DNA from: Cliona cf. orientalis
Lineage: Eukaryota; Porifera; Demospongiae; Clionaida; Clionaidae
DNA length: 64,000 bases
Assembly: GCA_963930775.1 (NCBI GenBank)
Contig: OZ005697.1
Coordinates: 1,054,001 to 1,118,000, forward strand
Direction: 5' to 3'
Position 1 is the stretch's first letter; each line of letters opens with the position of its first letter. Below the pieces are notes generated by a model that ran no database searches, was not told where the DNA came from, and worked only from the letters and a program-made list of their open reading frames with translations. The position numbers and the translations under genes are program-made. This document shows, piece after piece, positions 1 to 57,500 of this stretch.

Positions 1-302
1 GTTTACTAAACATGGGACACACGATCCTGAAAGTGATGTGGACGTGTTTTCTATAACAGCAGAGTATTTTTGAAAATCTGTGAGCTTTAAAGGGACCCAA
101 GACGGAAATAGCCTAACAAAACAGTGATACTTTTGCTGCCACGGCAGGCGCACAGAACGTGACAATAACTGACAAACAGATGCACGAGTCATGTGCCTGC
201 GTGTGCCAGAAGGAGAGAGAGAGACCAAAAATGTTCGTTTACAGAAGGGAAATCAGAGAGAGAGAGAGAGCTAGATAGAGATAGAGAGAGAGAATCATCT
301 AC
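1..302. other. Intron of the left-edge kinase gene
   Basis: Non-coding on both strands as far as I can see. It holds a GA-rich simple repeat (about 211-292) that, on the coding (-) strand, is a CT tract. The next kinase exon must be left of the window. Confidence 0.6.
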
Positions 303-796
303 CTGTGTTTCTCCATTTTCAAGGACCGTTGCTTCACTCTGGAGTAGCATCTTCTTCAGATTGCCAGCTAGCTGTTTCTCCAACGACTTGACTCGATCCT
401 TGAGGGTATCTATCACCTTATCCTTATCCTCCAGGGTGAGGCTAATTGTTTGCAGCTGTTGCTTGTTCGCTGCCAACTGGACACCCTTGGCCTCGAGCTG
501 GTTACGATTACTCTCTAGTACCTATACATACGCACATACACACGTGTATGGATGAATTTGTACGTGTGTGAGTATGAGTGTTAATTGAGGAAGAGAGAAG
601 TGTATGTACACGTGTGATCAGCGATAAATTCAATAAAGGTAATGGAGGTCACATACAAGACAAGTCCCCTTTTGAATTTTAATATTCCGGAGGGGGAGGG
701 GTATACAAACTCCACCCCCTCACTCTGTCTAGCATATCTCTGAATTTGACTTAAACACTCCACTCCCCCCCCTTACTCTCCCCCACCCCCTCTCTG

Positions 797-39037: not shown

Positions 39038-39332
39038 GGCTGCTGCGGTAGATAAGAGGATCGCCAACTGCCCCAATCAACCGCCTAAACCGTCTCACTT
39101 TCTTGAGTGCTAATCTTGCGTCGTAATTTTCCTAGAAGCAAGAGCGACACCTAACGACATTAACGCCCCAGGAATGCAATATAAGTGCATCCGCCCTACA
39201 TTGCGCATGCGCGCGTGCGGGCAACACTTGCATGGGTTGCCCACCAACATGGTGTGATTGGTTTGTGGTATGTGCATGTGACATGCACACACTGGAGCCT
39301 ACAGGCAGCATTTATTTCTGAGTCAAAATTTT
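39038..39332. promoter_or_regulatory. Divergent promoter of membrane protein and N-acetyltransferase
   Basis: 295 bp between opposed start codons, with a GC-rich palindromic core TGCGCATGCGCGC near 39204. Confidence 0.5.
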
Positions 39333-40235
39333 GTGATGAATTTGAGCAAAGAAGAAGCAATCCAGTTTGTCACCAAATTGAATGTCCTTGGAATACCCAA
39401 TCCAGATAGGAAGCTTCAAGAAGAGGACCGTGTGACATTCTTGAATGAAATCATCAAGGCAATCTTCTGCTCAGTGCCCTTTCAGAACATCACTCTTCTT
39501 GTTCAAGATGTGGCGGACCAGCACATACCCACCATGGAAGAAGTCAAGGCAGATTTAATGGGGAATAGGGGAGGCCTCTGCTATGCCATGGGCGTGTTTG
39601 CGACCCACTTGCTTCAAGCTTTAGGGTACGATGCTTACATGAGTGCCGGCAGTATAACAATTTTTGACTCCGGTAATCATGTCGTATGTATTGTACGAAA
39701 TCTAACCGGCCCAGGAAGCCTGCATATGGTGGACGCTTGGTGTGGATGGCCTACTTTCGAAGCAATTCCTCTAAATTTCAAAGACGAATCTCCAATCTAC
39801 AAGTTTTCATTCTTGGAAGTCAAGTTCATCCGAAAGGGGACACTTATCCAACGGTATCACTGGAAACCGGGAGATTGCTATGGAGAAGAAATTCCTGACG
39901 GTGACCAGTACCTCGATGGATGGAAAAAAATGTGCGAGTTTGACGAGGCAATTCCAAGAGAACTTGCTTTTTTTGAGAAGCCAATGTCAAGGGTTTATAA
40001 ACAGCCTGGAGATCTGTCGCCTTTCTTGACGTCCTTTCGTGCGATTTTGTACAGAGATCTGAGACTCATAGCCATTCGGGATGGCACGCTGTTGCTTGAA
40101 AAGGACGACCGTAAAGTGGAACGTGTGAAATTACAAAGCCGTAAAGAAGTGTGCGAGGCAGTGATGAAGTACTTCCCACAGTTTACAGCTGAAGAGGTGA
40201 TGAAAGCACTTGATAATTTGAACCTATTGGAGTAG
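39333..40235 (+). CDS. NAT: Arylamine N-acetyltransferase, intronless
   Basis: A single exon of 300 aa, slightly longer than most NATs. It transfers acetyl (or another acyl) from CoA to arylamines, hydrazines or related amines. The catalytic triad is visible: Cys83 in NRGGLCYAMG, His116 in GNHVVCIV and Asp134 in MVDAWCGWPTF. The helical N-terminal domain with VPFQNITLL is also typical. I chose the first Met (39333); the second Met is the next codon. No splice sites are needed, in contrast to most multi-exon neighbours. That may mean retroposition, transfer from a microbe, or simply an intron-poor family. An AATAAA lies 94 bp after the stop. Confidence 0.95.
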   Translation: MMNLSKEEAIQFVTKLNVLGIPNPDRKLQEEDRVTFLNEIIKAIFCSVPFQNITLLVQDVADQHIPTMEEVKADLMGNRGGLCYAMGVFATHLLQALGYDAYMSAGSITIFDSGNHVVCIVRNLTGPGSLHMVDAWCGWPTFEAIPLNFKDESPIYKFSFLEVKFIRKGTLIQRYHWKPGDCYGEEIPDGDQYLDGWKKMCEFDEAIPRELAFFEKPMSRVYKQPGDLSPFLTSFRAILYRDLRLIAIRDGTLLLEKDDRKVERVKLQSRKEVCEAVMKYFPQFTAEEVMKALDNLNLLE

Positions 40236-40418: not shown

Positions 40419-41267
40419 TTAACATCCATACTTGTCATTATCAACTGTGAATGCAAACTCCCTTGGATTATTGGACACCTCTGGACATCCCTTGAAACAC
40501 CCAATCGTCCAAGGGAATGCATCAGGAAAATGGTAGTGATAGACGCTCACTCCTTCAATCTCGTGTGTATGTCCGTGACATTCATCGAGATCAGTTGGAA
40601 GCTTGCCACCCAGCGAATATCGTCCGTACATCCCATATCCGTCAAAGATCCACCCCAGTAGCTCCGAGTGCTCTCCAGGTTTGTCCTGTGGGAGTTGACA
40701 TGTTTCACGACCGGCACTCGAGTTGAAACCAACGCCAGAGTGGATGTGGTACTGATTGGTGGGAGCCGGGTGTCCTCCGCAGAAATCGACAGTGTGACCT
40801 TCGGACTCGACGGCGTCGACCCATTTCGTAGGCCCACCCTGATCTGGGCATTTTGAGCTGAATCCACATGGTGACCCCACACCGAAAATGTTCACTCCAG
40901 TCTTTAGTACACCTAGAACACCGAGCATGGGTTCAGGATCTTCCTTGAGGTACGTGATTCCTTCGAAGACTTCCTGTTTTTCTCCGACGGGAATTGGAGT
41001 CTTGGCCATTTTGGGATTTATTGGGATCCTGTAGGTTGAATCGAACACACAGGCATGGGCAGGATTTGTCCACGATGGATTCTTGTACGGGGGGCACTGT
41101 GAAGTTTGCATGTAGCGAAACGTACCGTTGGTTGTGATTTTGGCAGTGTTGTAGGGTGCACTTGTTGGGCACTGAGTCTTCCCTATTTGAGCACACGTGG
41201 TGTGGTGTGGCTGAGCCCGCACTGTGCAGCATAGAAGTCCAACAAATGCACACAATCCCAAGAGCAT
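40419..41267 (-). CDS. Secreted YHYH-domain protein
   Basis: A single exon of 282 aa. Residues 1-18 form a signal peptide (LLGLCAFVGLLCC core, cut before QPHH). The body carries the YHYH family signature: CGGHPAPTNQYHIHSG, GWIFDGYGMYGRY, then LDECHGHTHEIEGVSVYHYH followed by FPWTIGCFKG. The His-rich motifs suggest metal binding, but the biochemical role of this family is not known to me. At least ten cysteines suggest a disulfide-rich extracellular protein. It is convergent with the N-acetyltransferase, with 183 bp between stop codons. Like that gene it has no intron in the coding region. Members are common in bacteria and scattered in marine eukaryotes, so ancient transfer is possible. Confidence 0.85.
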   Translation of the reverse strand: MLLGLCAFVGLLCCTVRAQPHHTTCAQIGKTQCPTSAPYNTAKITTNGTFRYMQTSQCPPYKNPSWTNPAHACVFDSTYRIPINPKMAKTPIPVGEKQEVFEGITYLKEDPEPMLGVLGVLKTGVNIFGVGSPCGFSSKCPDQGGPTKWVDAVESEGHTVDFCGGHPAPTNQYHIHSGVGFNSSAGRETCQLPQDKPGEHSELLGWIFDGYGMYGRYSLGGKLPTDLDECHGHTHEIEGVSVYHYHFPDAFPWTIGCFKGCPEVSNNPREFAFTVDNDKYGC

Positions 41268-44640: not shown

Positions 44641-45511
44641 ACTGACAATGGGTCAAACACTATTACATAATTTTACTGAAGTCACAGCTGTTCCAGTATT
44701 GACCTAAATATCACACTGATTCAAGGTGAAGCTGGCCATGGCATGCATGGCAGATGCTTGCCATAATGAGGCCACATTATAGAACATCACTGTGATAATA
44801 TCAAACAATAATCGCACACACACAGTTCAAGCATTATCAGTAGGTGTTGTTGCCAATTTTGCCACCTGCTCTCATCGGTGAGATTTTTTGGATAAATAAT
44901 TTTTATCCAGCAAAAATTTTCAGCTAGACAGTATTACCATAATTATTATAATAGATCAAGCCGCACTGGCTCACCTTTCCCTTTGTTCCTGTTATATGAA
45001 TAGCATTGAGACGATCCAAATCTTCTACCTATTATTAAGTAAATTTGTTTCCTAAATATGCGCCAGGGAGGTGCAAGTTGTATATAACTTCTCCAGGCCA
45101 TGCTCTCTCACTTTCAAGTTAGTCCGATGAAGGAAGTGGTACATTTGTGCCATCTCCTTTGGTCGGCGAACACCACTTTGTCTGATCTGCTCCAGGACAG
45201 CTGCGTTGGTCTGCAGGCCGTTCAGCGCCGTCACTGCGCGCTGTACATGCATGTAGGGGGTGTGCACAGATTGCCCAAATATAGGGTGCCGGGAGGGAGG
45301 GAGAGAGACGGGGGTACATACTAAAATTGCGTATTTTTGGGGCATCCTGTGGATGACCCCTGTGACTGACCTCGTATGCGGCTGTTTCATCTTCTTGGAG
45401 AGAGGCCGACATCGCGATTCGCCTTATTTTACCCCTCAAGACTCGAAGGTAGCTCCAGATGTCTTTGTCTACCTTGAGCAGCTGTCTAATCGGCAAGATA
45501 CTGGTATTCAT
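41653..45511 (-). CDS. FPGS: Folylpolyglutamate synthase, mitochondrial/cytosolic
   Basis: Sixteen exons: 45371-45511, 45112-45240, 44975-45028, 44481-44545, 44224-44344, 44073-44150, 43912-43973, 43620-43800, 43406-43460, 43096-43197, 42729-42812, 42558-42655, 42424-42476, 42243-42318, 42105-42171 and 41653-42038, totalling 1752 nt (583 aa). The enzyme adds glutamates to folates, retaining them in cytosol and mitochondria. Signatures: ALNGLQTNAAVLEQIR near the N terminus, P-loop TGTKGKGS split by an intron, SPHLLEVRERIRLNG, IEVGIGGTYDSTN, GITSLGYDHTDILG, TGEHQLKNA, YFLDGGHT and VQVLITGSLHLVGAA at the end. The Met at 45511 gives a basic leader; the internal Met at 45412 (MSASLQEDE) gives a cytosolic form, as in vertebrates. 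Exon 1 uses a GTCAGT donor, chosen because it keeps phase with exon 2. Confidence 0.95.
42849..43069. mobile_element. Palindromic MITE with TACCGTATAGCC ends
   Basis: It begins TACCGTATAGCCAGAAA and ends GGCTATACGGTA, with internal repeats of ATTTGGCGG and its complement CCGCCAAAT. It lies in the FPGS intron between exons 42729-42812 and 43096-43197. No coding capacity. Confidence 0.85.
44563..44638. repeat. (GA)n microsatellite
   Basis: About 75 bp of pure GA, just upstream (on the coding - strand) of FPGS exon 44481-44545, where it reads as CT. Confidence 0.95.
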
Positions 45512-45614
45512 AAGGCGATACATGCACATGTACTGAAAAGGCGTTACTGGTATAGTGCGCATGCGTGTTACTTGCCCTCTGAACCTCCAACTACACCCCC
45601 ACACTATTATTATT
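45512..45614. promoter_or_regulatory. Ancestral FPGS/RING bidirectional promoter, copy 1
   Basis: About 100 bp between the FPGS start and the M-A-K-A start remnant at 45615. It contains GTGCGCATGCG, also present at 48877-48887 in copy 2. Confidence 0.55.
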
Positions 45615-45660
45615 ATGGCGAAAGCGCATATACTCGACTCTCTAGCAGTGCCTCCAAGTA
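45615..45660 (+). pseudogene. Detached 5' end of RING1
   Basis: ATGGCGAAAGCG at the position corresponding to the RING2 start ATGGCAAAAGCT. The frame soon stops and the rest of RING1 resumes near 47006, after 1.39 kb of repeats. Confidence 0.55.
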
Positions 45661-45865
45661 TACGGATTTGTCAGTATTTGTACTGAATTCCGACCATAAA
45701 TACTGATAAAATCTTAAAAATACTGAAAATTGGGGGAATTTAGTGCATACATCATATATGGAACTCTTTGTAAAAATACTGAAAAATACTGAAAATGCAT
45801 GCAAAATACTGAAAAATGGGAAGATTTATACTGAAACACAGGAGAGCAGCTTGGAGGCACTGCTC

Positions 45866-45930
45866 TAGTCTCGTCCCCAGCCCCTTCCCCTTCTTTCCGG
45901 GTGCGTGAAAGGGGGCTGGGGACAAGACTA
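45866..45930. mobile_element. Short palindromic element (AGTCTCGTCCCCAG type)
   Basis: Inverted ends TAGTCTCGTCCCCAGCCCC and GGGGGCTGGGGACAAGACTA enclose a few tens of bases. Confidence 0.75.
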
Positions 45931-45977
45931 ATGTACTCTCTTGAGCATGGCCATGGATTCTTGAGAACGGGCCACGC

Positions 45978-46018
45978 TAGCCTCGTGCCCAGGCCATTTG
46001 CTTTGGGTACGAGGCTAT
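45978..46018. mobile_element. Short palindromic element (AGCCTCGTGCCC type)
   Basis: Ends TAGCCTCGTGCCCAGG and GGGTACGAGGCTA; related to the elements at 45866, 46307, 46953 and 48154. Confidence 0.7.
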
Positions 46019-46027
46019 AGGGGTTGG

Positions 46028-46134
46028 TGCAAAACCTGGACTCTGGACTCTGGACTGGACTCATGGACTGGACTGTGGACTGAGATTTGGACTCGATTTT
46101 GGACTGATGCGCTGGGCGATGACGACCATTTCCA
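46028..46134 (+). repeat. Left arm of 107-bp inverted repeat
   Basis: It starts TGCAAAACCTGGACTCTGG and contains GGACT-unit tandem sequence. Its reverse complement is at 46814-46920 with only a few mismatches; about 680 bp lie between. Confidence 0.9.
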
Positions 46135-46306
46135 ACAACAAACTCTGTTGCGTACGCGTTGGAGGCCGATAGAATGTGCTATAAGGAGCTGCTTGTATTT
46201 ATAAAGCATGTAGAGGTAGAGCTGATTATTTCCCTTGGAAAATTGGTGAAGGGTGCATCTCCTCAGGGCATTGGGCATCAAGTTGAGACTCGGATGCAGT
46301 GAAAGA

Positions 46307-46355
46307 TAGTCTCATTCCCAGCCCCCTTTCAAGCATACGGAGCTGGGGACGAGGG
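46307..46355. mobile_element. Short palindromic element
   Basis: Ends TAGTCTCATTCCCAGCCCCC and AGCTGGGGACGAGGGA inverted. Confidence 0.65.
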
Positions 46356-46813
46356 ACTTGATAATGACCATAGCTCTACAACTGAGAGATTAGGCCAAAG
46401 AAGCCTTGAACGCCGGCTGATTTTCAAGGAGCCTGAATTCGAGACTAAGTTTGAGCATAAGGTAGATACTTTCTATATCCAGGTATTATAGTGTTTTTAT
46501 AAATCTACTCCGACTTATCCCGAGTCTCCACATAATTTGAGCGTGAGGGTATGGGGCTATTATTTAATAGTCTCATTGTCCCCTTAGCCTTCGTAGGCGT
46601 CTCGGTGATATTGAAGTCCATTCCTGTGAGGAGATGCCATCCCAGCCGGGCTCACTGATTTTGCAACTTCTACATGCTTACAAGTAGCCTCCAGGCTAGC
46701 TCCTTGTGATTTAACCTCGTACCCTGAAGGGCCTGGGAACGTACGTACAAGACTGCTTGTGACTACTAGCCTAGCTTGCAGTTGTAGCACCGTGCCTTCT
46801 TTCCATAGTCTCT

Positions 46814-46920
46814 TGGAAATGGTCGTCATTGCCCTGCGCATCAGTCCAAAATCGAGTCCAAATCTCAGTCCACAGTCCAGTCCATGAGTCCAGTCCAGAG
46901 TCCAGAGTCCAGGTTTTGCA
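46814..46920 (-). repeat. Right arm of 107-bp inverted repeat
   Basis: Inverted copy of 46028-46134. It is translated in frame with RING1 and explains the spurious N-terminal extension. Confidence 0.9.
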
Positions 46921-46952
46921 CTTACCCAGGCTGGGTATAGGGCCACGCAAAG

Positions 46953-46997
46953 TAGTCTCGTGCCCAGCCCCCTTTCACGCACTGGGCACGAGACTAG
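46953..46997. mobile_element. Short palindromic element at the RING1 start
   Basis: TAGTCTCGTGCCCAGCCCCC ... GGGCACGAGACTA, ending only 9 bp before the RING1 ATG. Confidence 0.8.
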
Positions 46998-47005
46998 TGA
47001 CTACG

Positions 47006-47659
47006 ATGGAGAGACTTGTTATCGATTTGATCAAGGCTCGGATCGCCGAAGCTGTGGCTACCTATCCAGCAACTGTCATACTGGTTTCCTTATCCCTGTT
47101 GACATTTATCACCGTGGCGGCCAACTTCATCATCCAGATGCTCTCCTGGGTCATGTACTTTCTAAACATTGCTGCCAGGCACGTTTTCAGCATACTCTAT
47201 CCTGCAGCACTGGTGGCACTCATTGTAGTATGGTGCATCAATGTGCTTCGAATCAGAAATTTGGATCGTTTGAAAATTCCTAAAAACTATCCCACTATTG
47301 CTCTGTTTTTACGATTGATTTTGTGTATCATTGCTGGACAGCTCACCCTCCTCTCTCTGCCACCGATTATCAACTTCTTTGCAATGCCATTTGCTTCTGC
47401 ACCCACCCTCCTCTTTACGATAGTTTTCTCCATTGGAACGGCAGTTTACGGTATATATTTGATTCTTAAGGCTGACAGACAACCAAGAAGTGAAGGTGGG
47501 GATAATAATACTTGTATCGTATGTTTGGTGAACCCCAAGACTCATCTTATCAAGCCCTGTAATCATTTCTGTGTTTGCGGAGACTGCATTCATCAGCTGA
47601 ATGAGTGCCCGCTCTGTAAACGGCCAATTAACATGCACGAGAGGATATATTCATCATGA
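47006..47659 (+). CDS. RING1: multi-pass membrane RING-finger E3 ligase (cluster copy 1)
   Basis: 217 aa from the Met at 47006. Four or five hydrophobic segments fill residues 20-145 and a C-terminal RING follows. The RING is C3HC4 with spacing C-x2-C-x11-C-x-H-x3-C-x2-C-x6-C-x2-C and the tail reads MHERIYSS-stop. It is closely similar to the gene at 48930 along nearly the whole length, but lacks about 20 residues between the membrane part and the RING. The open frame continues upstream to 46829, but that stretch is repeat-derived (inverted-repeat arm and palindromic element), so I reject it as coding. A remnant of the ancestral start (ATG GCG AAA GCG, M-A-K-A as in RING2) lies at 45615, 1.39 kb upstream. 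Either the start moved to 47006 or the insertion is spliced out. Confidence 0.8.
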   Translation: MERLVIDLIKARIAEAVATYPATVILVSLSLLTFITVAANFIIQMLSWVMYFLNIAARHVFSILYPAALVALIVVWCINVLRIRNLDRLKIPKNYPTIALFLRLILCIIAGQLTLLSLPPIINFFAMPFASAPTLLFTIVFSIGTAVYGIYLILKADRQPRSEGGDNNTCIVCLVNPKTHLIKPCNHFCVCGDCIHQLNECPLCKRPINMHERIYSS

Positions 47660-47689
47660 AAACCTCTTTGTTGTAAGCATATTAAATCA

Positions 47690-47940
47690 TCAGGAAATTG
47701 CAAACAACTGAACCTTCATTGTTTCCATATAGCTATTCAACTCATTGTAATATCTGTCCTATCCTCACACTCCATCATAGTAAATTATTGCCATACTTAC
47801 CTCATAACCACAGAAAACTAAATTTCTATTGGGCATGTAATTTCCGTTATCCTCCCATGTAAATTTAGTACTGATCCTGCTCCCCCCACCCCCCCCCCCC
47901 CCCCCCCCCCCATACCTCTTTTCATCTCATTCATCCTCAA
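47690..47940 (+). other. RING3-like 3' flank downstream of RING1
   Basis: The stretch from GCAAACAACTGAACCTTCATTG to CTCATTCATCCTCAAGG parallels 50850-50995 downstream of RING3 (CAAACGATTGAACC, TTCATTGTTTCAACTCATTG, ATCTCATCCATCCTCAA). It marks the RING3 slot of the duplicated block, with the RING3 gene itself missing. A poly-C run at 47889-47910 is an extra. Confidence 0.65.
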
Positions 47941-48153
47941 GGTTAATAATTATCATTTTTATACCTGGGTTTGGTCACAAAATAGGTTATATTATATGAT
48001 CTATGGTCACAACCTGCTATTATGAGGCTCTAATTAGACTTGACTTGAGCTATGTGGGCGTTAATGTGCCACACCCTTATTTCTTTTTTGCTGACTCATG
48101 AATTGTACGTGTCCAATTTGTGTATTGACAGCTGCCAGCAGCAAAGCAGAGAA

Positions 48154-48188
48154 GTAGCCTCGTCCCCAGCTCTCTGGGAACGAGGCTA
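48154..48188. mobile_element. Short palindromic element with paralogous empty site
   Basis: TAGCCTCGTCCCCAG ... CTGGGAACGAGGCTA inserted inside the duplicated RING4 5' flank. The same flank without the insert is at 51762-51783. Confidence 0.85.
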
Positions 48189-48198
48189 AGCAGAGAAC

Positions 48199-48245
48199 AT
48201 GAGCCTACTGACTGAATTGCTGGTGCTGCCGTTTGGACTGGCAGT
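48199..48245 (+). pseudogene. Broken copy of the RING4 5' end
   Basis: The first 16 codons (MSLLTELLVLPFGLA...) repeat the start of the gene at 51782 almost exactly, then similarity stops at about 48245 and the frame ends shortly after. The match extends upstream about 170 bp into the 5' flank (48040-48198 against 51655-51781), including the shared GTGGGCGTTAATGTGCCAC stretch and a TTTGCTGACTCATGAA stretch. A palindromic element has inserted at 48154-48188. This is a truncated duplicate, not a working gene. Confidence 0.85.
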
Positions 48246-48689
48246 ATATACTTCACAATTTGAACTTCCTTCAACAGCTGAAACTTCATCTCATAATAAT
48301 CATTAATTTTGATACTTGTGTAAATATAATAATGTGTGTATTAAATAATAATAAAAATTGCAAAGAGGGTTCAAAATTGTACATATGCATGGTGGAGTAT
48401 GGTTTCCAGTGTGATACCAGCCAATCTCCATTGCTGCTTTGCTCACTCCGAAACGGCAATGTTGTGCTATGGACCAGAAGAGTAATTTTCAGTCACTGAT
48501 ATCATTCACAAAATACCTGAGAGATACAAAAGAGGAAATTAGTATCAGTAATCACATCCCACAAGGATTAATTCCTAAGGCCCTAAGCCTGTTTACTGTG
48601 GGTTGTTATAGACCAAGGATCAAGACTGCATTTATATTACTAAAATTACGTATTTTTGGGGCATCCTGTGGATGACCCCTGTGACTGAC

Positions 48690-48830
48690 CTCGTATGCGG
48701 CTGTTTCGTCTTCTTGGAGAGAGGCCGACATCGCGATTCGCCTTATTTTACCCCTCAAGACTCGAAGGTAGCTCCAGATGTCTTTGTCTACCTTGAGCAG
48801 CTGTCTGATCGGCAAGATACTGGTATTCAT
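48690..48830 (-). pseudogene. Duplicate of FPGS first coding exon (dead copy or alternative first exon)
   Basis: The 47-codon reading frame from the Met at 48830 is identical in protein to FPGS exon 1 (MNTSILPIRQLLKVDKD... to ...ETAAYE), with only silent base changes, and the GTCAGT donor is kept. The nucleotide match spans about 48640-48925 against 45321-45600, so it includes the head of intron 1 and the promoter side. No other FPGS exon follows it here. It could be a decayed by-product of the duplication that made the RING genes, or a second first exon splicing about 3.4 kb downstream to FPGS exon 2. Perfect protein conservation argues for youth, gene conversion or use. Confidence 0.8.
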
Positions 48831-48929
48831 ATGGCGAAACATGCACACATGCCACATGCATGGCGTTGCTGACATAGTGCGCATGCGTATATCTTCACCT
48901 CTGAACCTTCGAACAAACCACACCCACCA

Positions 48930-49718
48930 ATGGCAAAAGCTGACTCGGCATTTTTAATGCGATCATACGGCACAATGTCGCCTGAAGAAGCTATGGAAGC
49001 AATAAAGAGGATTTTTGTGGAACTTTCGAACGAATGGACCAGGGCTCGAGTCGCTGCAGTCGTGTCTACCTATCCAGCAACTATCATACTAGTTTTCTTG
49101 TCCGTGTTGACCTTTGTCACCGTGGCGGCCAACTTTCTCATCCAGATGCTCTCTGGGGTTATGTACATTCTAAACATTGCTGCCAGGCTCGTTTTCAACA
49201 AATTCTATCCTGCAGCACTGGTGGCACTCACTGCAGTATGGTGCATCAATGTGCTTCGAATTCGCAATTTGGATCGCTTGGAAATCCCACGAAACTATCC
49301 CATCATTGCTCTGGTTTTACGACTGACTTTGTGCGTTATTGCTGGACAGCTCACCCTCCTCTCTCTGCCACCGATTATCAACTTCTTTGCAATGCCGTTC
49401 GCTTCTGCTCCCACCCTCCTCTTTACGATAGTTTTCTCCGTTGGAACGGCAGTTTATGGTATATATTTGATGCTTCTTAAGACTCTCCCTCGAGCAATCG
49501 ACAGGCAACAACCGAGAATTATCATGGAAAATTTAACCAGAGATGGTTTGGACACTGAGGATAACAACATCTGTATCGTATGCTTGGTGAACCCCAAGAC
49601 TCATCTCATCAAGCCCTGTAATCATTTCTGTGTCTGTGGGGACTGCATCCGTCAGCTGAATGAGTGTCCACTCTGTAAACGGCCAATCAACATGCACGAG
49701 AGGATTTATTCAACGTGA
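48930..49718 (+). CDS. RING2: multi-pass membrane RING-finger E3 ligase (cluster copy 2)
   Basis: Single exon, 262 aa. A short hydrophilic N terminus (MAKADSAFLMRSYG) precedes four or five membrane segments (about 45-195), a linker of about 25 residues, and a C-terminal RING with the same C-x2-C-x11-C-x-H-x3-C-x2-C-x6-C-x2-C spacing. The end reads MHERIYST. It is the intact sister of RING1. It starts about 100 bp from the duplicated FPGS first exon on the other strand, so it probably uses a promoter that was originally bidirectional with FPGS. By analogy to RINGs of this type it should act with an E2 enzyme at an internal or plasma membrane; the substrate is unknown. Confidence 0.88.
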   Translation: MAKADSAFLMRSYGTMSPEEAMEAIKRIFVELSNEWTRARVAAVVSTYPATIILVFLSVLTFVTVAANFLIQMLSGVMYILNIAARLVFNKFYPAALVALTAVWCINVLRIRNLDRLEIPRNYPIIALVLRLTLCVIAGQLTLLSLPPIINFFAMPFASAPTLLFTIVFSVGTAVYGIYLMLLKTLPRAIDRQQPRIIMENLTRDGLDTEDNNICIVCLVNPKTHLIKPCNHFCVCGDCIRQLNECPLCKRPINMHERIYST

Positions 49719-49992
49719 AAACCTCTTTAAACATTACTGGAAATTGATCAGACGGGAGGGACAACCACAGTCATTCTGATTCATTCACTTCAGTTTTTTT
49801 TTCAGAAATAATATATTTTTATACAAGTTGGCTACAGAATGCCTTGGATGTTAATCTCATGTCATAATTATGTTCCTATGTAACAATAATGGTCCAGGTG
49901 ACAATTATTGCAAAAGACCACACCTGCTGATATCCACATTGCTGACTGTGCAGTTTTTAGTGACTCAATGTACCACTGACTTGAGAGAAAAA

Positions 49993-50805
49993 ATGGAGCT
50001 CTGGTTTGTTGATAAATTTGGAACTCTAATACTTGTTATTCTTGGTTTCTGTGTGGGACACATCATATTTCAACTACATGAAGCAGTGAAGTCACTGCGG
50101 CATCGGATCAATCCAGGGCTGACTCCTGATTATGTGCCAGTTGGAATATCAAATGCAAAGACTCCTAGTGCTCTCTCAGCTGAATACTACTACATTACGA
50201 TGACTGTGTTGTCATATCTTGCAGCCTTAGTCCTAGTTGTGGCATCTATATCTGTTTGTGCACTGATTATAGTGTGGTGTACAAGTGATGAGTATAATAT
50301 GATGATAAAGAGGACACGTGATATCACAAGAACGATGAATTCCTCGGTAAAGACATGGAATCGTCAAGTTGGAATACAGATGTCATCATTATTGGCGCGT
50401 ATGAATCATGGAGTTAGGACACATTGTGCACGTAAACTTAGAAAAACAGTATCCTCATTACGGGCTGGATTACTCTACATGAAACATAAAATTCAACGTA
50501 TGTGGAATGCCATTTCAACACTGATATTCTTATTGATGGCAAGTCTCCGCAAGGTTTCTAATAAGAAGGCCGCTCTCGGGTCTGATACTGAACTTGTGCT
50601 GAGAAGGCAATTGATTGAAGCAAATGAACAGCTTTCCCAGGAAAGGGACAAATCTTTGTGCATCATTTGTCTGGACACACCACGAGAGGTGCTGCTCAAG
50701 CCATGCAAGCATTACTGCTCGTGTTCCAGTTGTACCAGTAGTATCAGAGAATGCCCCATTTGCAAGCAGCAGATTCGGGAGACTGAGGTGATATACAATG
50801 CTTAG
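49993..50805 (+). CDS. RING3: membrane-anchored RING-finger E3 ligase
   Basis: Single exon, 270 aa from the Met at 49993 (MELWFVDKFG). The frame is open back to 49870, but that extension has no recognisable character. There is one hydrophobic segment at the N terminus (LILVILGFCVGHIIF), a second strong one (about 75-105, YLAALVLVVASISVCALIIVW), a basic, helix-rich middle, then a segment LRRQLIEANEQLSQERDKSL that is nearly repeated in RING4, and a C-terminal RING (CIICLD...PCKHYCSCSSC...CPIC) with tail ETEVIYNA. The linker shared with RING4 shows direct kinship between these two genes. Confidence 0.85.
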   Translation: MELWFVDKFGTLILVILGFCVGHIIFQLHEAVKSLRHRINPGLTPDYVPVGISNAKTPSALSAEYYYITMTVLSYLAALVLVVASISVCALIIVWCTSDEYNMMIKRTRDITRTMNSSVKTWNRQVGIQMSSLLARMNHGVRTHCARKLRKTVSSLRAGLLYMKHKIQRMWNAISTLIFLLMASLRKVSNKKAALGSDTELVLRRQLIEANEQLSQERDKSLCIICLDTPREVLLKPCKHYCSCSSCTSSIRECPICKQQIRETEVIYNA

Positions 50806-51781
50806 TAATAGTTGTTACTATATATGCAAGCATAATGCCCAAGCATCAGCAAGTTTCAAACGATTGAACCTTTCTTCATTGTTTCAACTCATTGTACTTA
50901 GCTTATAGCTATCCACACTCTCTGCCGGATATCCTACTGACCCTGTTTTACCATTTCGTACCCACCTTTTTCCCATCTCATCCATCCTCAATTACTCTCG
51001 AGCTCCTTAATACCGAACTTCAATAAAAGTCAGTTGTTTTAGCCAGTCCTGTGCAAGCCATATACATGTATGTCAACAATAGCAGGACCATCTTTGGAAA
51101 CAATTCAATGGCAGGCATGCAGCTACTGAAGGTATTAGAACTAACCCCCAGCACCAGAGTCCAAGATAGGCACTAAAGCCTATATTTAATCATACTTGAG
51201 TGGGTTCAGAGCTCACAGGGGTCTCTCCCCTAGGGCGTACATGTACTTCTACCCTCGTCTCCCCAGGTGCCCCAGGTGCCCCAGGTGTCCCGATGTTTCG
51301 ATTATCACTGTGGATGATCATTGCAAGCAGCATTGAGCGAGGTAATCCCTACAATCAGTAACAATGGAAACAGCATCTGGGTAGGTCTACTAAGGCTACA
51401 TTGAGAGGAGGAACAAGCATGGCTTCAAATGGGTAGGGTAAAATAATGCTATCATTATAATTGTAAATGAACAGATCTCGACATCTAAGTGTCTTAGCAA
51501 AGGGATAGCTAGTGCAATCACAATATCAAAAAATATAATGGTAAAAAACAGACAAAGAATTTTTTGGCTTCAAAGTGGTTGATAAAGTTCACAAACGCTA
51601 CAATGATTAATTAACCACACCGAGACATCACATACAGTTTCTTATCACAACCTGAGGCGCTAATTAGACTTGAATCATTAGGTGGGCGTTAATGTGCCAC
51701 GCCCTCATTAATTTTCTTTCTTTGCTGACTCATGAATACATACGTGTACAATAGTTCGTGTGGTAAAGCAGAGCAGAGAAC
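50806..51781. other. RING3-RING4 intergenic region
   Basis: RING3 3'UTR (50806-51030), then sequence with a small CAGGTGCCC triplicate (51265-51290), then the RING4 promoter (51655-51781). The outer parts are duplicated at 47690-48198. No further gene is seen. Confidence 0.55.
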
Positions 51782-52792
51782 ATGAGTCTACTGACTGAAT
51801 TGCTGGTGCTGCCGTTTGGACTGGCGCTAGATACCATCAACATGGTGCTGTGGATCGTCTTCTCCGTCTGCGAGGCTACATTCGCTCTGATCTGGGACCT
51901 GACCTGTTTCTCAATGTCAACTCTCGAGCTCATCCTGGAGTACGCCTTAGCTATCATGGGGCAAGCGCTGTTTGACTGGCTACCGAAGCTCGTAAGCTTC
52001 TTCTACAGGGTTGTCCTTTATACGGCCCCGATAGTGTGGCAATGCGCGGTAGCCATTTCCCGGATAATAGCCAGTGCGTGGATGTTTGTATATAGCCTCC
52101 CCTGGAAAGCAACTTTTGTGAGTGTAATTTCAACATCGTGGGACTATACGTCTTTCGCCGCTTCTCTCTTTCATCGGCAAGGGAGCTACGCAGTGAGAGA
52201 AGTGTCAAATGCAAACTACAGTGCCGTCTGGAAGGTTATCACGGAGACTTACGTAGTCCTTCTAACTGTTGCTTTTGTTGGTATCGTCACTTGCGTGCTC
52301 ATTTGGCAGAGTCAGCAGAAAAATAGAAGCAGAAGAGATAGTCCAGAGGCTGAGACCAGAGAAAGAGGACTTCAGTCACGAAGAAGGAGTGAGCTAGCCG
52401 CTATAGTGAGACGACGTCGTTCGCATTCAATATCTCAATCAACGTCTCAAGAAAATGGCCAAAATGGCCACCTATCCGACACAACACGTGGTGGTAGCTC
52501 ATCTTCGTCAGATGTGGACGATACTGTACAAGAGTCTACAGATTCCCTAAAATCTAACACTGAGCTGGCCCACAATACTGAATATTTGCGAAGGCGATTG
52601 CATCGAGCCAACGAAGAACTGTCGCAGGAAAGGGATAAATTTCTGTGTGTCGTATGCCAGGACCTGAAACGAGAGGTGATTCTTAGACCGTGCAACCATT
52701 ACTGCTTGTGCCTCGAGTGTTCAAAAGCGTTGAGGGAGTGCCCAATATGCAAGAGCAGAGTCCGAAATACCGAGAAAATTTACCATGCTTAA
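51782..52792 (+). CDS. RING4: membrane-anchored RING-finger E3 ligase with basic Ser-rich linker
   Basis: Single exon, 336 aa. Hydrophobic segments lie at about 5-55, 58-105 and 160-180 (VLLTVAFVGIVTCVLIW). They are followed by a basic, Arg/Ser-rich cytosolic region (about 185-270, including RRRRSHSISQSTSQ), a short helix with ANEELSQERDKF, and the C-terminal RING (CVVCQD...PCNHYCLCLEC...CPIC) ending NTEKIYHA. A truncated copy of its 5' end and flank lies at 48040-48245. Confidence 0.88.
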   Translation: MSLLTELLVLPFGLALDTINMVLWIVFSVCEATFALIWDLTCFSMSTLELILEYALAIMGQALFDWLPKLVSFFYRVVLYTAPIVWQCAVAISRIIASAWMFVYSLPWKATFVSVISTSWDYTSFAASLFHRQGSYAVREVSNANYSAVWKVITETYVVLLTVAFVGIVTCVLIWQSQQKNRSRRDSPEAETRERGLQSRRRSELAAIVRRRRSHSISQSTSQENGQNGHLSDTTRGGSSSSSDVDDTVQESTDSLKSNTELAHNTEYLRRRLHRANEELSQERDKFLCVVCQDLKREVILRPCNHYCLCLECSKALRECPICKSRVRNTEKIYHA

Positions 52793-53290
52793 TATCACTC
52801 TTTCCAGTTTCTTTAACTAGTGCTTATTAGGTATTAATAGTTGTTATTTCATTATTTAAGCCTCGTTGATTTTTAGTATGTAACCCAGTCGATCACTTCG
52901 ATATATAGCTTGTCACTGTTTTGCGTTTCATTATTCAAATCTAGTTTGTGATCAGTCAATCATGCTAATTGTCATGTTCTGTCTATATGTATGTTTCATC
53001 ATAGCTTTTATAATAATGTTATTATTATACCCCTATTTTAATGCGTGATTTTTTGTAACAAACCGTACGATGACATTGTGATATTATTATTATACTTACA
53101 GTTAGCAAAATTGATAGATTTAACATTAGCCTCATCCCTATAGACTCCCTCGATCATAATTTTTTCAATGTTCTACGTACATGTATGCAGCTAACAGTGA
53201 AACTCTGTGGTAGCCGTGGATGGCAGTCAGTCATAATAATCACTATGGGGATGAGGCTACAGTATCACATGATATAGCTGTGCCCACTAG
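52793..53290. other. Convergent 3' flanks of RING4 and RING5
   Basis: AT-rich; holds the palindromic element at 53127-53259 and nothing else recognisable. Confidence 0.5.
53127..53259. mobile_element. MITE-like element with TAGCCTCATCCC ends
   Basis: TAGCCTCATCCCTATAG at the left and CTATGGGGATGAGGCTA at the right, 133 bp in all. The ends are related to the short palindromic elements at 45-48 kb, so it may be a longer member of the same family. Confidence 0.75.
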
Positions 53291-54517
53291 CTAGCTGATG
53301 TAGATCTTCTCATAGTTTCGTATCAACTTCCGGCAGAGGGGACACTTGTTCTGTAGCGTCGACTTGCACGTGTTACAGACACAGTAATGATTACAGGGTC
53401 TCAGCAGGTATTGGCGCTTTCTCTCCATGCAAATCACACACATTATCTCGTCACCAGTAACCTGCTGTTTTACGACTTTCAAGACTGGAGGACGCTTCTC
53501 CATTTCGGTCACTTTCCTCTGCTGTTCTTGAATCTTTCTCTCCAAGATGGCATTGTCTCTCCTCTCCTCCTCCAGCTCTCTAGCGAGGTCCACACATCTG
53601 CTTTCAAGAGTCACTGACCGCTTTTTCTCCACCTGGAGCTTCTTTTCGACTTCTCTGTTCTTCCTATCGAAATTGTTTGCCAATCTTCTTTCCGAGTTGA
53701 CCCACTGGTTTACCTCCATAATATTGTTTTCTAGTTGCCTGATTTTCTGTTCTAACCGCTTCACCTCTTTCTCCTTGTCCAAGCACTCAATGGTGGCTTT
53801 TATTATTGTCTTCATGTATTGCTCCTCTGCCCACTCCAGCTGGATAATTCTCTGGAGGTGATTACCACAAGGGCTTTTCGACCATCTTTCGTGCGTTTTG
53901 ATAAGCCACTGGATCAGTTTTAGTACAGGTTCGTCGGAGTTGTAGTAGTGAAAGCCTGCCAGCATCAGCGGGATTGAGAGTAAAATGGCGGAAATAAATA
54001 ACATTTTTGTTAGACGAAGCGGAACTACGGCTATGTGCAGCTCGTAGTCACGATAAATCCAGAACGGTAAAAACCATGTGGGCATGATGTCTGACAGCAT
54101 CACACCACTGAGATCCTCGTCCTCCAGCAAAATCAGTTCCTCCCCCGGACACTGGACCTGTGTACTGTCGTTCATGACAATATCCCACACTCTCCACAGC
54201 ACTGCCAAGCCGAAGACCACCAACGGGGAGGAGGCAAGTACCGCGCGACTCATGTAGTTCAGCTCCTCATATCTCTTCATGATGTTTCTGATGGACTCGT
54301 CTTCTTTCACCACCGGCTCGGCAAAGTGTTTATAGATGAACACCAGAACGATCGCTGTGAATGTGAGGATCGAACTGGAGACCAAGAAACAGACGATCAC
54401 GTCGATATACCACCAGAGACAGCCCGCCAATGCCGCCAACAGGGTCGCCATGTTGATGATCGCGAGAATGTCCCCACACATGTGGGCTAGTACTTGGCCA
54501 CGCCCACAACCCCCCAC
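53291..54517 (-). CDS. RING5: membrane protein with long coiled coil and C-terminal RING
   Basis: Single exon, up to 408 aa. The first Met is at 54517, but Met13 (54481, MCGDILAIINMATLL) is as likely because the first dozen codons lie in a short GC-rich inverted repeat. Hydrophobic segments occur near 24-62, 92-112 and 175-195. Residues about 230-365 form a heptad coiled coil (KEVKRLEQKIRQLENNIMEV and similar). The RING (CVICME...PCNHYCVCNTC...CPLC, with seven instead of six residues before the last pair) ends NYEKIYIS, almost the IAP tail. It is the most divergent member, on the opposite strand, and divergent from the ERICH6-like gene, only 46-83 bp away. Confidence 0.85.
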   Translation of the reverse strand: MGGCGRGQVLAHMCGDILAIINMATLLAALAGCLWWYIDVIVCFLVSSSILTFTAIVLVFIYKHFAEPVVKEDESIRNIMKRYEELNYMSRAVLASSPLVVFGLAVLWRVWDIVMNDSTQVQCPGEELILLEDEDLSGVMLSDIMPTWFLPFWIYRDYELHIAVVPLRLTKMLFISAILLSIPLMLAGFHYYNSDEPVLKLIQWLIKTHERWSKSPCGNHLQRIIQLEWAEEQYMKTIIKATIECLDKEKEVKRLEQKIRQLENNIMEVNQWVNSERRLANNFDRKNREVEKKLQVEKKRSVTLESRCVDLARELEEERRDNAILERKIQEQQRKVTEMEKRPPVLKVVKQQVTGDEIMCVICMERKRQYLLRPCNHYCVCNTCKSTLQNKCPLCRKLIRNYEKIYIS

Positions 54518-54563
54518 TCTTTGGTGGGCGTGGCTCGACCTAGCTGTTCAGAAGCTGAGGATA
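54518..54563. promoter_or_regulatory. Very short divergent promoter of RING5 and ERICH6-like gene
   Basis: 46 bp between start codons (83 bp if RING5 starts at 54481). The inverted repeat GCCACGCCCACAA / TTGGTGGGCGTGGC spans 54500-54534, overlapping the first RING5 codons. Confidence 0.55.
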
Positions 54564-57500
54564 ATGTCTCACCAGTCTGTGGCTACGCAGACTCATTGGA
54601 GCTGGCTGAAAGACCTGGAAGAGATAGCCAGGCTAAAAAGAGAGCATGGAGGTGAAGTCAATCTGGAGATGGACTCAATTCAGCAAATGCTGGATGAGGA
54701 ACAGAGTGACAGACATCCAGGTGCATCAGCTACAATAACATGTACCTGTAGCTACACATATTCACTTGCAGTAGTTACTTTTATGTACATATTCATTGCC
54801 AATAGATCTAGCTACAGAAGGTAGAGATCTGAGTCTTGGGAGGGACTTGCAAATGAACCACAAAAGAGGTAAAGAGGAGGTGATAATGAGTGAAAACGAG
54901 AAAGCTGCACTGGCAAATGAGAAAAAACTCACCCTTCCATCCATTGTCAATGAAAGTGAAGATAGACCAAAGAAGCCACAACGTGCTGAAGAGCTGATTC
55001 TGCCATCAATCATATCATCAGCCGCAAGCCAGGTAGTTGAAATGGACAGCGAAGAAGAAGATGAAGCAATACCAGAATCTGTCAAACCCCTGAGCGTCTC
55101 GTCCATAGAGCAACTCGAGCAGTTGACATTTCCTTTCTTCGAAGATAAACCAGCAGAAGACAGCGATGGAGACTCAGATGCAGAAGAAGGAAGCGATAAA
55201 GCTGAAGATGAAGAAAGGGACAGTTCACAAGGCAGCAGTCCGGATCCCATTCCACCTGCTCCTCGTCTAAAGGTTGATAATCTATCATGGCCCTCCATTC
55301 TACAGTACATGCGTGAATCAGAGTCACTAACGAGCAATTATTTCAGTCTGAGCAACAAAGAAGCTATTGAGTCTCGGCTAGCACACAATAGGAGACTGCA
55401 ACAGACAGTAACATCAGCAGAAGCACAAAGGATGAAAAGTCACCACATTGTGTCTGGCGGCGATGAAGAGAGAGACTCGGAATCTGAATCGACGGCTGCA
55501 AGAAGCCAGATTTGTGATTTCTGTGGCCAAAGTACTACTCCAATCAGTTTATTACAACTTGCAGAGGATCAGGTATACATACTTTGTATGACAATAATTT
55601 TAGCCTCAACCCCCCCCCCCCCCCCCCCCCCCGGGCTCCCAGATCTTTATGTTCACTACAAGTGTGAAAAACAATAGGGGCCTATGGATGAGGCTACATA
55701 ACGTTTAGCAAGATGCATACAAGTATGAGATTAGTCTCGTTCCCAGATTCTACCCTTGAATAGGAATGAAATTTTAACATTCACTTGTAGGAGTCACAAA
55801 TGATGTTGTGTTGTGAGGAAAAGAAAGGGTTGTGTGTTCTCATGGCTGTCTGCATGAGGCAGATGATCACCAGGCTGAAGCAAGATAGACCAAAGAAGAT
55901 CTCGGTTGAGCTAACCAAGATGGCAGTGAAGAAAACTGCTGAAGAGAAAGCATTAGAAATGTAAGATAATTATCTCTTCAACTTGAAATTTTATGATTCA
56001 TGCATTGGCAGGATGAGAAGACAGAGGAAGTGGGAGGAGCTTAGGAGAAAAAAAGAAGAAATCCAGCAACAAGCAAAATGTACGACAAGAATGTCATAAC
56101 GGACTTGATTAATGGGCTGTAGTACAAAATGACAATAGTGCTCAATCGCTGGCAGTAATAGCAAGCTTGAGGACCAGGACTATGTGCTCCATGCCTCACA
56201 TTGTGCTTTTGTCCTTGCAGTACCAAAACATGTTCAACTCATTCAGTTCTCTCTCCTCTCTGCTCCGGAGGGAGAGTGGATGGTGAGACCAGAGTCGGCC
56301 ATGAAGCACCAGACACCAAAGCAGAAGCAAGAAGCTCTGAGGAGGGAGAAGGCTTTGAAGAAAAAAGAACAAGAACATCTTCGAAAAGGCATACTGCTGC
56401 CAAAAACCATTGAAAGATTGAAACAGGTACGAGCTGACTCTATTCTGATGATACAATAATTATTGTGATGTGCTGTAGTTACACTGTGAACAAACACCTT
56501 CTGAGCTCAAAGTACTGAATTATGGAGACGGGAAAAAGTTAGCCATTTTGCTTCCTGATGGCACAGGACAGGTCTAGTATCCTTAAATCCCAATACCGAT
56601 GTTACCATGGCACTATTATAAAATCTTAGCATTTTATTTGCTCTTGAGTTATTTACCTTTTTGTAATGTATTACATAATAATAATGGCATATCCGGGCCA
56701 TCCCTACTCTATAATATGCTAATATTCCTTGATTCAAAGGTTTTAGCTACCCCTCAGGAAATCTATCAATCATCATCTTCTCACCGTACATTGGAGTATT
56801 GGCCTATCTTGTATTCGAAGTAAGTCACATGTCATATCCACTACTATAGCTACATTGAAAATATTCATCCAATATATACATGCAGGATTCAAATCAGCCA
56901 TGTCTCCTAGCCTACATGGATGAACTAGGCAGAATTATATGCTACAACTCACAGGCAAAAATTAGGTTACTACTGAGGCAGTTTGAGGGATTTCTTTACG
57001 ACGGTGAAGATTGTCAAAGCTGCAGAAAGCACTGGAGGTGGGGCAGTGGGGAGACTTTGGTGTTTCAGCCGTTTACCCTCTCACTGAACAAACAACTGAC
57101 TGTCAAGCTGAATAGCCATGTACGTTGATCATCAAAATTCTAATCATCTAATAATTCTTTATTCTTATAGGATAAATTTTTATTAACATTCTGTGGAAGC
57201 AAGCTGAATCATATCAGATTTGACGTTGAATCGAAGCTCAAAGATGTATGTATACATATATCTTATTAGTCTATAGCAAGGAACTAATACCTATAATAGT
57301 TCAGTAACCAGTATGTATACAATGTCATGCTGCAGGACAAAATGCTCAGTCGAGAAATTGAGAGTGTTCAACTTGCTCAAAGTTACTTAGGAATGATCAA
57401 AAATAGAATAAGGTATGTGCACACATAAAAACACCTAAAAACGCCTGATGCTGGATACATATTACTGTGCTAATACTTGTAGCCAACTTCTGCAACTCTT

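Follow-up and report, generated by a model that had tools for sequence, protein, structure and literature searches.

A cluster of five genes (g1 to g5) lies in a stretch of 64,000 nucleotides from the sponge Cliona cf. orientalis (GCA_963930775.1, contig OZ005697.1, positions 1,054,001 to 1,118,000; hereafter the window, whose own numbering is used throughout), which is part of a genome assembly of 216.8 Mb in 149 contigs. We propose that these genes probably encode multipass membrane RING ubiquitin ligases, which would form dimers like those of IAP, MDM2 and RNF4 with a tail that acts in trans. A dimeric RING ubiquitin ligase (E3) at a membrane is the most likely reading of the five sequences, which would then represent a small local family belonging to an enzyme type already known.

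Five linked genes with a common type of RING and tail

The five open reading frames (ORFs) span 47006-54481 (7.5 kb), four on the plus strand and one on the minus strand, each opened by an ATG and closed by a stop of its own; judging from these open frames, all of them appear to be intronless. Pfam zf-C3HC4_3 (PF13920; curated cut-off, 27 bits) was matched at the C-terminus of all five proteins, at 43.2-48.7 bits, and all five have the C3HC4 RING spacing C-x2-C-x11-C-x-H-x3-C-x2-C-x6/7-C-x2-C. Their C-terminal ends, from g1 to g5 in order, are KRPINMHERIYSS, KRPINMHERIYST, KQQIRETEVIYNA, KSRVRNTEKIYHA and RKLIRNYEKIYIS. In every case the RING core is followed by a tail of 13 residues, with a Tyr at +11 from the last zinc Cys and two residues after the Tyr. 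The zinc ligands, the basic linchpin and the tail Tyr are intact in the five proteins, the linchpin place (the residue directly after the last Cys) being occupied by Lys in g1-g4 and by Arg in g5, while the residue two before the tail Tyr is basic in four of the five and Val in g3. The initial annotation of this DNA had reported five genes in 7.5 kb with this spacing and a common tail motif, and the ORFs, Pfam and the sequence bear it out for each gene. The features are as follows:

47006..47659, +, g1 ORF: 217 aa; hydrophobic segments at aa 25-43, 60-78, 98-116 and 135-153; C-terminal RING; tail ERIYSS
47513..47617, +, g1 RING core: aa 170-204
47618..47656, +, g1 tail: 13 residues, Tyr at +11
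48930..49718, +, g2 ORF: 262 aa; tail ERIYST; recent paralogue of g1
49572..49676, +, g2 RING core: aa 215-249
49677..49715, +, g2 tail: Tyr at +11
49870..50805, +, g3 ORF: 311 aa; two strong hydrophobic segments; tail EVIYNA; alternative start at the next in-frame ATG, 49993
50659..50763, +, g3 RING core: aa 264-298; preceded by a stretch alignable with that of XIAP and cIAP2
50764..50802, +, g3 tail: Tyr at +11
51782..52792, +, g4 ORF: 336 aa; 3 to 5 hydrophobic segments; tail EKIYHA
52646..52750, +, g4 RING core: aa 289-323; modelled
52751..52789, +, g4 tail: Tyr at +11, residue 73 of the model
53291..54481, -, g5 ORF: 396 aa; four hydrophobic segments; heptad-patterned stretch at aa 211-345; C-terminal RING; tail EKIYIS
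53333..53440, -, g5 RING core: aa 348-383
53294..53332, -, g5 tail: Tyr at +11

An NCBIfam search of the cluster gave no family above its cut-off, and Rfam, used with its gathering scores over 44800-55400, gave no match.

The tail is in register with that of the IAP RINGs

A profile of the five RINGs aligned with XIAP without a gap to the last residue (profile 4-56 of 56, chain 12-64 of 64), placing the Tyr on the Phe. When the single-chain model of the g4 RING was structurally aligned to XIAP 8w59 (17..73 to 441..495), Tyr73 fell on XIAP 495, and residue 75 of the model coincided with the C-terminal residue of cIAP1 (618), XIAP (497), cIAP2 (604) and MDM2 (491). By profile or structural alignment, the tail Tyr matches XIAP Phe495, cIAP1 Phe616 and MDM2 Tyr489. 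These alignments support the proposal of the initial annotation that the tail is the equivalent of the IAP dimer tail, with its Tyr where the IAPs have their Phe. A full-length model of g2 had a predicted local distance difference test score (pLDDT) of 49.5 and was not used.

The IAP and IDOL RINGs headed the structural alignment of the g4 model, with MUL1 and MEX-3C tied with these (Z within 1). IDOL/MYLIP is a FERM-domain protein that does not span the membrane, and MUL1/MAPL is an E3 of the mitochondrial outer membrane with a C-terminal RING, which superposes on the g4 model with an rmsd (root-mean-square deviation) of 1.5 over 52 residues (model 24..75 to 298..352). Unlike MUL1, none of the five proteins matched the GIDE domain (PF12483) at E up to 1. 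As in the IAP RINGs (cIAP1, cIAP2, XIAP and BIRC7), the cluster has the RING spacing, the tail register to the last residue, the basic residue two before the aromatic one (four of the five genes) and, in g3 and g4, an alignable pre-RING stretch. In contrast to the IAPs, it has predicted membrane segments, Tyr in place of Phe and no BIR domain: Pfam gave no BIR match in g1-g5 at E up to 1, although its library yields three BIR stretches for the IAP of this genome.

What such a tail does has been described for cIAP1, where it works in trans: the donor ubiquitin is contacted by two residues of the partner, Arg614 and Phe616, F616H is defective, and a Phe or Tyr matching Phe616 is present in BIRC7, RNF4 and MDM2-MDMX (PMC6349121, in excerpt). 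A cationic linchpin stabilises the conjugate of the ubiquitin-conjugating enzyme (E2) with ubiquitin, and the XIAP residue at that place is Tyr485 (PMC12326332, in excerpt), which lies ten before 495 and is the residue directly after the last Cys.

By this logic, the five proteins would be inserted in the membrane with their C-terminal RING on the cytosolic side, and the RINGs would form homodimers or heterodimers as in IAP, MDM2 and RNF4. Each protomer would use the usual RING face and the basic linchpin to bind E2~ubiquitin, and the Ile-Tyr-x-x end of the partner would pack across the dimer, keeping the donor ubiquitin closed for transfer in an active ligase. The membrane anchor would determine the site of action and which membrane proteins are the substrates. 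As for the organelle, our guess by analogy with RNF26 and MUL1 is the endoplasmic reticulum (ER) as the most likely and mitochondria as the next. The immune or stress role and the lineage specificity put forward in the initial annotation are speculative.

A common RING module on four types of anchor

Tethering to membranes, as proposed in the initial annotation, is predicted by hydropathy only. At a mean hydropathy of at least 1.6, g1 to g5 have respectively 4, 3, 2, 3 and 4 segments of 19 residues before the RING; at a mean of at least 1.2 the numbers are 4, 5, 3, 5 and 5. In the heptad-patterned stretch of g5, the hydrophobic share is 64% at core positions vs 20%.

g1 and g2 share 83% identity where they align; nonsynonymous (dN) and synonymous (dS) divergence are 0.032 and 0.673 in the RING and tail (dN/dS about 0.05), and 0.131 and 0.278 in the anchor part, so that in this pair the catalytic end is conserved and the anchor is looser. 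The last 76 residues of g3 and g4 are 59% identical, with a dS of about 1.8 for the pair; among the remaining 8 pairs, dS is saturated in 7 and amounts to 2.78 for g2/g5. The recent copies are therefore g1 and g2 only. When the anchors of g1/g2, g3, g4 and g5 were compared among themselves, BLASTP gave no significant similarity (best E 0.10) and single-sequence hhalign gave probabilities of at most 3%. Because no significant anchor similarity is seen outside g1/g2 and the tail end of g3/g4, the cluster reads as one RING module carried on four anchor types without detectable mutual relation.

A bolder reading, which we consider quite doubtful, is that the locus carries a constant dimerising RING-tail module on four unrelated membrane anchors. 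The close likeness of the tails and of the RINGs could then allow mixed dimers across anchors, as in MDM2/MDMX, and these would yield a combinatorial set of membrane E3s joining varied sensors to one catalytic end. If the proposed function is right, the varying anchor and fixed catalytic end would offer a natural comparison of what anchor and tail each contribute.

Relation to RNF26 and to the IAPs

The design is not new. Human RNF26, an E3 of the ER membrane, is predicted to have six membrane segments, and its C-terminal RING has been likened to those of RNF4, the IAPs and MDM2; mutation of its penultimate Tyr432 abolished auto-ubiquitination, and tagged Y432A pulled down endogenous RNF26 (PMC7332293, in excerpt). 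Its last eleven residues are RGILQTLNVYL, and these are also reported to bind vimentin when the ligase is inactive (PMC10505911, in excerpt), a second possible role for such a tail. Because RNF26 has been published with both, a membrane anchor combined with an IAP-like tail is a design already described, and a special status of this combination is not supported; nine RINGs of this genome outside the cluster also carry an aromatic residue at the tail position. The cluster resembles RNF26 in its N-terminal membrane segments (from hydropathy only), its C-terminal C3HC4 RING and its near-terminal Tyr (from sequence), and differs from it in having two residues after the Tyr instead of one and in comprising five linked genes. 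If our reading is true, a plan like that of RNF26, in which a multipass anchor is combined with a RING of the IAP type and an essential aromatic residue at the end, also occurs as a multigene cluster in another animal. Literature searches on sponge RING expansions and on RNF26 in invertebrates or as an intronless gene, and on RNF26 or XIAP in sponges or cnidarians, returned nothing on the family of the cluster in the excerpts of the matches listed.

The kinship of the five genes was approached with a RING tree of 17 rows, in which 1 of the 14 inner branches is firmly supported and for which the program warns of long branches meeting. g1-g5 form one clade (support 86/97). This clade groups weakly (87/89) with the genome's own IAP, CGRRF1 and RNF26, the other side of the tree holding human cIAP2, XIAP and MUL1. 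Because of this common clade and the low dN against dS in the RING and tail of g1/g2, we read the resemblance among the five as not due to chance. Counting against a tight clade, g4 used as a tblastn query matched the genome's own IAP (42.2 bits) above g2 (38.1) and g1 (37.4).

Two origins were weighed for the cluster. That its genes are co-orthologues of vertebrate RNF26, duplicated locally and retaining its role at the ER, is possible but not probable. The architecture and the essential near-terminal Tyr are the same, the published RNF26 tail having its Tyr at the matching place; RNF26 falls within the wider group of the tree; and a provisional human RNF26 sequence gave 55.5 bits with g3 and g4 (62 aa aligned), 48.9 with g5, 44.7 with g2 and 43.5 with g1. 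This provisional sequence, of which the tail is available in print, fits the published descriptions in its length, Ile382, Tyr432 and tail. However, the genome's own three-BIR IAP matches it almost equally (54.3 bits), and a RING gene on C13 reaches 47.0 bits; therefore, similarity in the RING appears not to decide kinship with RNF26. The loop before the last CxxC is shorter in the cluster than in the provisional RNF26, and the N-terminal parts of g1-g5 gave no homology to it, their scores being reached by 293, 282, 248, 75 and 40 of 300 block shuffles, respectively. A candidate RNF26 orthologue elsewhere in the genome (L062; 44.7 bits to the provisional RNF26) has its RING in two pieces with stops between and was set aside; we take its RING to be MGRN1-like. 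The other origin, in which a BIR-type gene lost its BIRs, its RING and tail became fused to membrane segments and local copying followed, is in our view unlikely, even though the best match outside the cluster for g2, g3, g4 and g5 is the RING of the three-BIR IAP on C17, which with g4 as query outranks two cluster members, and the EKIY/ERIY tails are closer to QKIF of XIAP than to LNVY of RNF26. Against it, no BIR was matched in the five genes at E up to 1, the wider grouping is weak, takes in CGRRF1 and RNF26 and leaves human cIAP2 and XIAP outside, and 52 alignment columns are too few to settle such a derivation. As the RING does not decide, the N-terminal parts give no homology to RNF26 and the tree is weak, we file the cluster provisionally as neither RNF26 nor IAP.

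It is very improbable that g1-g5 are non-catalytic, for example scaffolds or decaying copies. Three observations would fit such decay: the 5' end of g1 seems displaced by an insert, part of g4 recurs between g1 and g2, and a g3-like piece with stops lies on C14. However, the zinc ligands, linchpin and tail are intact in all five, and the RING of the newest pair (g1/g2) is under strong purifying selection. Dimeric membrane E3s remain our preferred reading.

The family and the tail across the genome

The initial annotation had left the size of the family to be counted. With g2, g3, g4 and g5 as tblastn queries (g1 was not its own query), the close relatives in the genome are the five genes only, plus one stop-bearing fragment on C14 (L051; G000:C14:6702341-6702472). 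This fragment, of 44 residues and 61% identical to g3 aa 234-277, was found with the g3 query only and may be what is left of a cluster gene elsewhere. Beyond it come the IAP (L001 on C17, three BIR stretches and a RING) and the C13 gene, which we presume to be MYLIP-like and in which Pfam gives a RING only; for g4, two more RING genes follow. A large genome-wide family was thus not seen with these queries, the further matches being other RING genes.

The tail does not single out the cluster. In a survey of RINGs, 150 of 462 candidates were scored and 70 of these 150 were pattern-scanned, many of those unread being near-identical frames of ~760 aa; the pattern was matched in 61 loci and not in 9, giving 60 distinct RING strings, some of which are internal exons followed by letters that are not a real C-terminus. 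Phe or Tyr is present at +11 in 14 of the 60 strings, namely the five cluster genes and 9 of the 55 others, four of these nine being near-copies in an array on C8; when only frames that end within 16 residues are counted, 35 strings remain, and it is again these 14 that carry the aromatic residue. The tail was accordingly rejected as a hallmark of the cluster: a near-terminal aromatic residue is common in this RING class and alone is no sign of kinship with the IAPs. The C8 array (G000:C8 7.26-7.41 Mb; L007, L013, L014, L015, L022, L028 and L029) consists of small RING exons, several with tails that end in RIRLFQ or similar. At G000:C4 10.87-11.12 Mb, and also on C3, C7 and C13, open frames occur by the dozen whose RINGs score almost alike (34-35 bits); many of these frames are about 760 aa long, and together they read as a large family or a repeat.

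The GIDE domain of MUL1 was sought in the genome and not found, a result of little weight for its absence as introns can hide it; STING was likewise not found, but its control was also unmatched and introns can hide it, so this is no evidence of absence.

History of the locus

The DNA around g1 and g2 keeps traces of duplication:

45319..45528, +, block upstream of g1: the other copy of the block upstream of g2; the homology to the g2 upstream region continues to 45602
48189..48251, +, copy of the 5' end of g4 including its start codon: 63 nt, 94%; between g1 and g2
48638..48847, +, block upstream of g2: 210 nt, 98% identical to 45319-45528

The copy of the g4 5' end reads as a duplication relic. 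The 210-nt block was found in two copies only in the genome. Their 98% identity contrasts with a dS of 0.28-0.67 between the coding parts of g1 and g2, a difference that constraint or recent gene conversion would explain. No Pfam domain was matched (E up to 0.1) by ORFs over the repeated blocks.

Position 45602 is equivalent to 48927, immediately in front of the start of g2 (48930), and homology to g2 resumes at 47023, within g1; because of this break, the 5' end of g1 is uncertain. Hence ~1.4 kb (45603-47022) separates the g2-like upstream region from the body of g1, and a short ATGGCGAAAGC at 45615 aligns with the g2 start ATGGCAAAAGC, over eleven bases only. The segment contains an inverted repeat of 115 nt (46021-46135/46813-46927, arms 97% complementary) and would be either an insertion truncating g1 or a new intron.

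Elsewhere in the window, a single-frame ORF at 39282-40235 (+) with an arylamine N-acetyltransferase domain (PF00797) adjoins another at 40419-41267 (-) with a YHYH domain (PF14240); both are possibly of bacterial origin.

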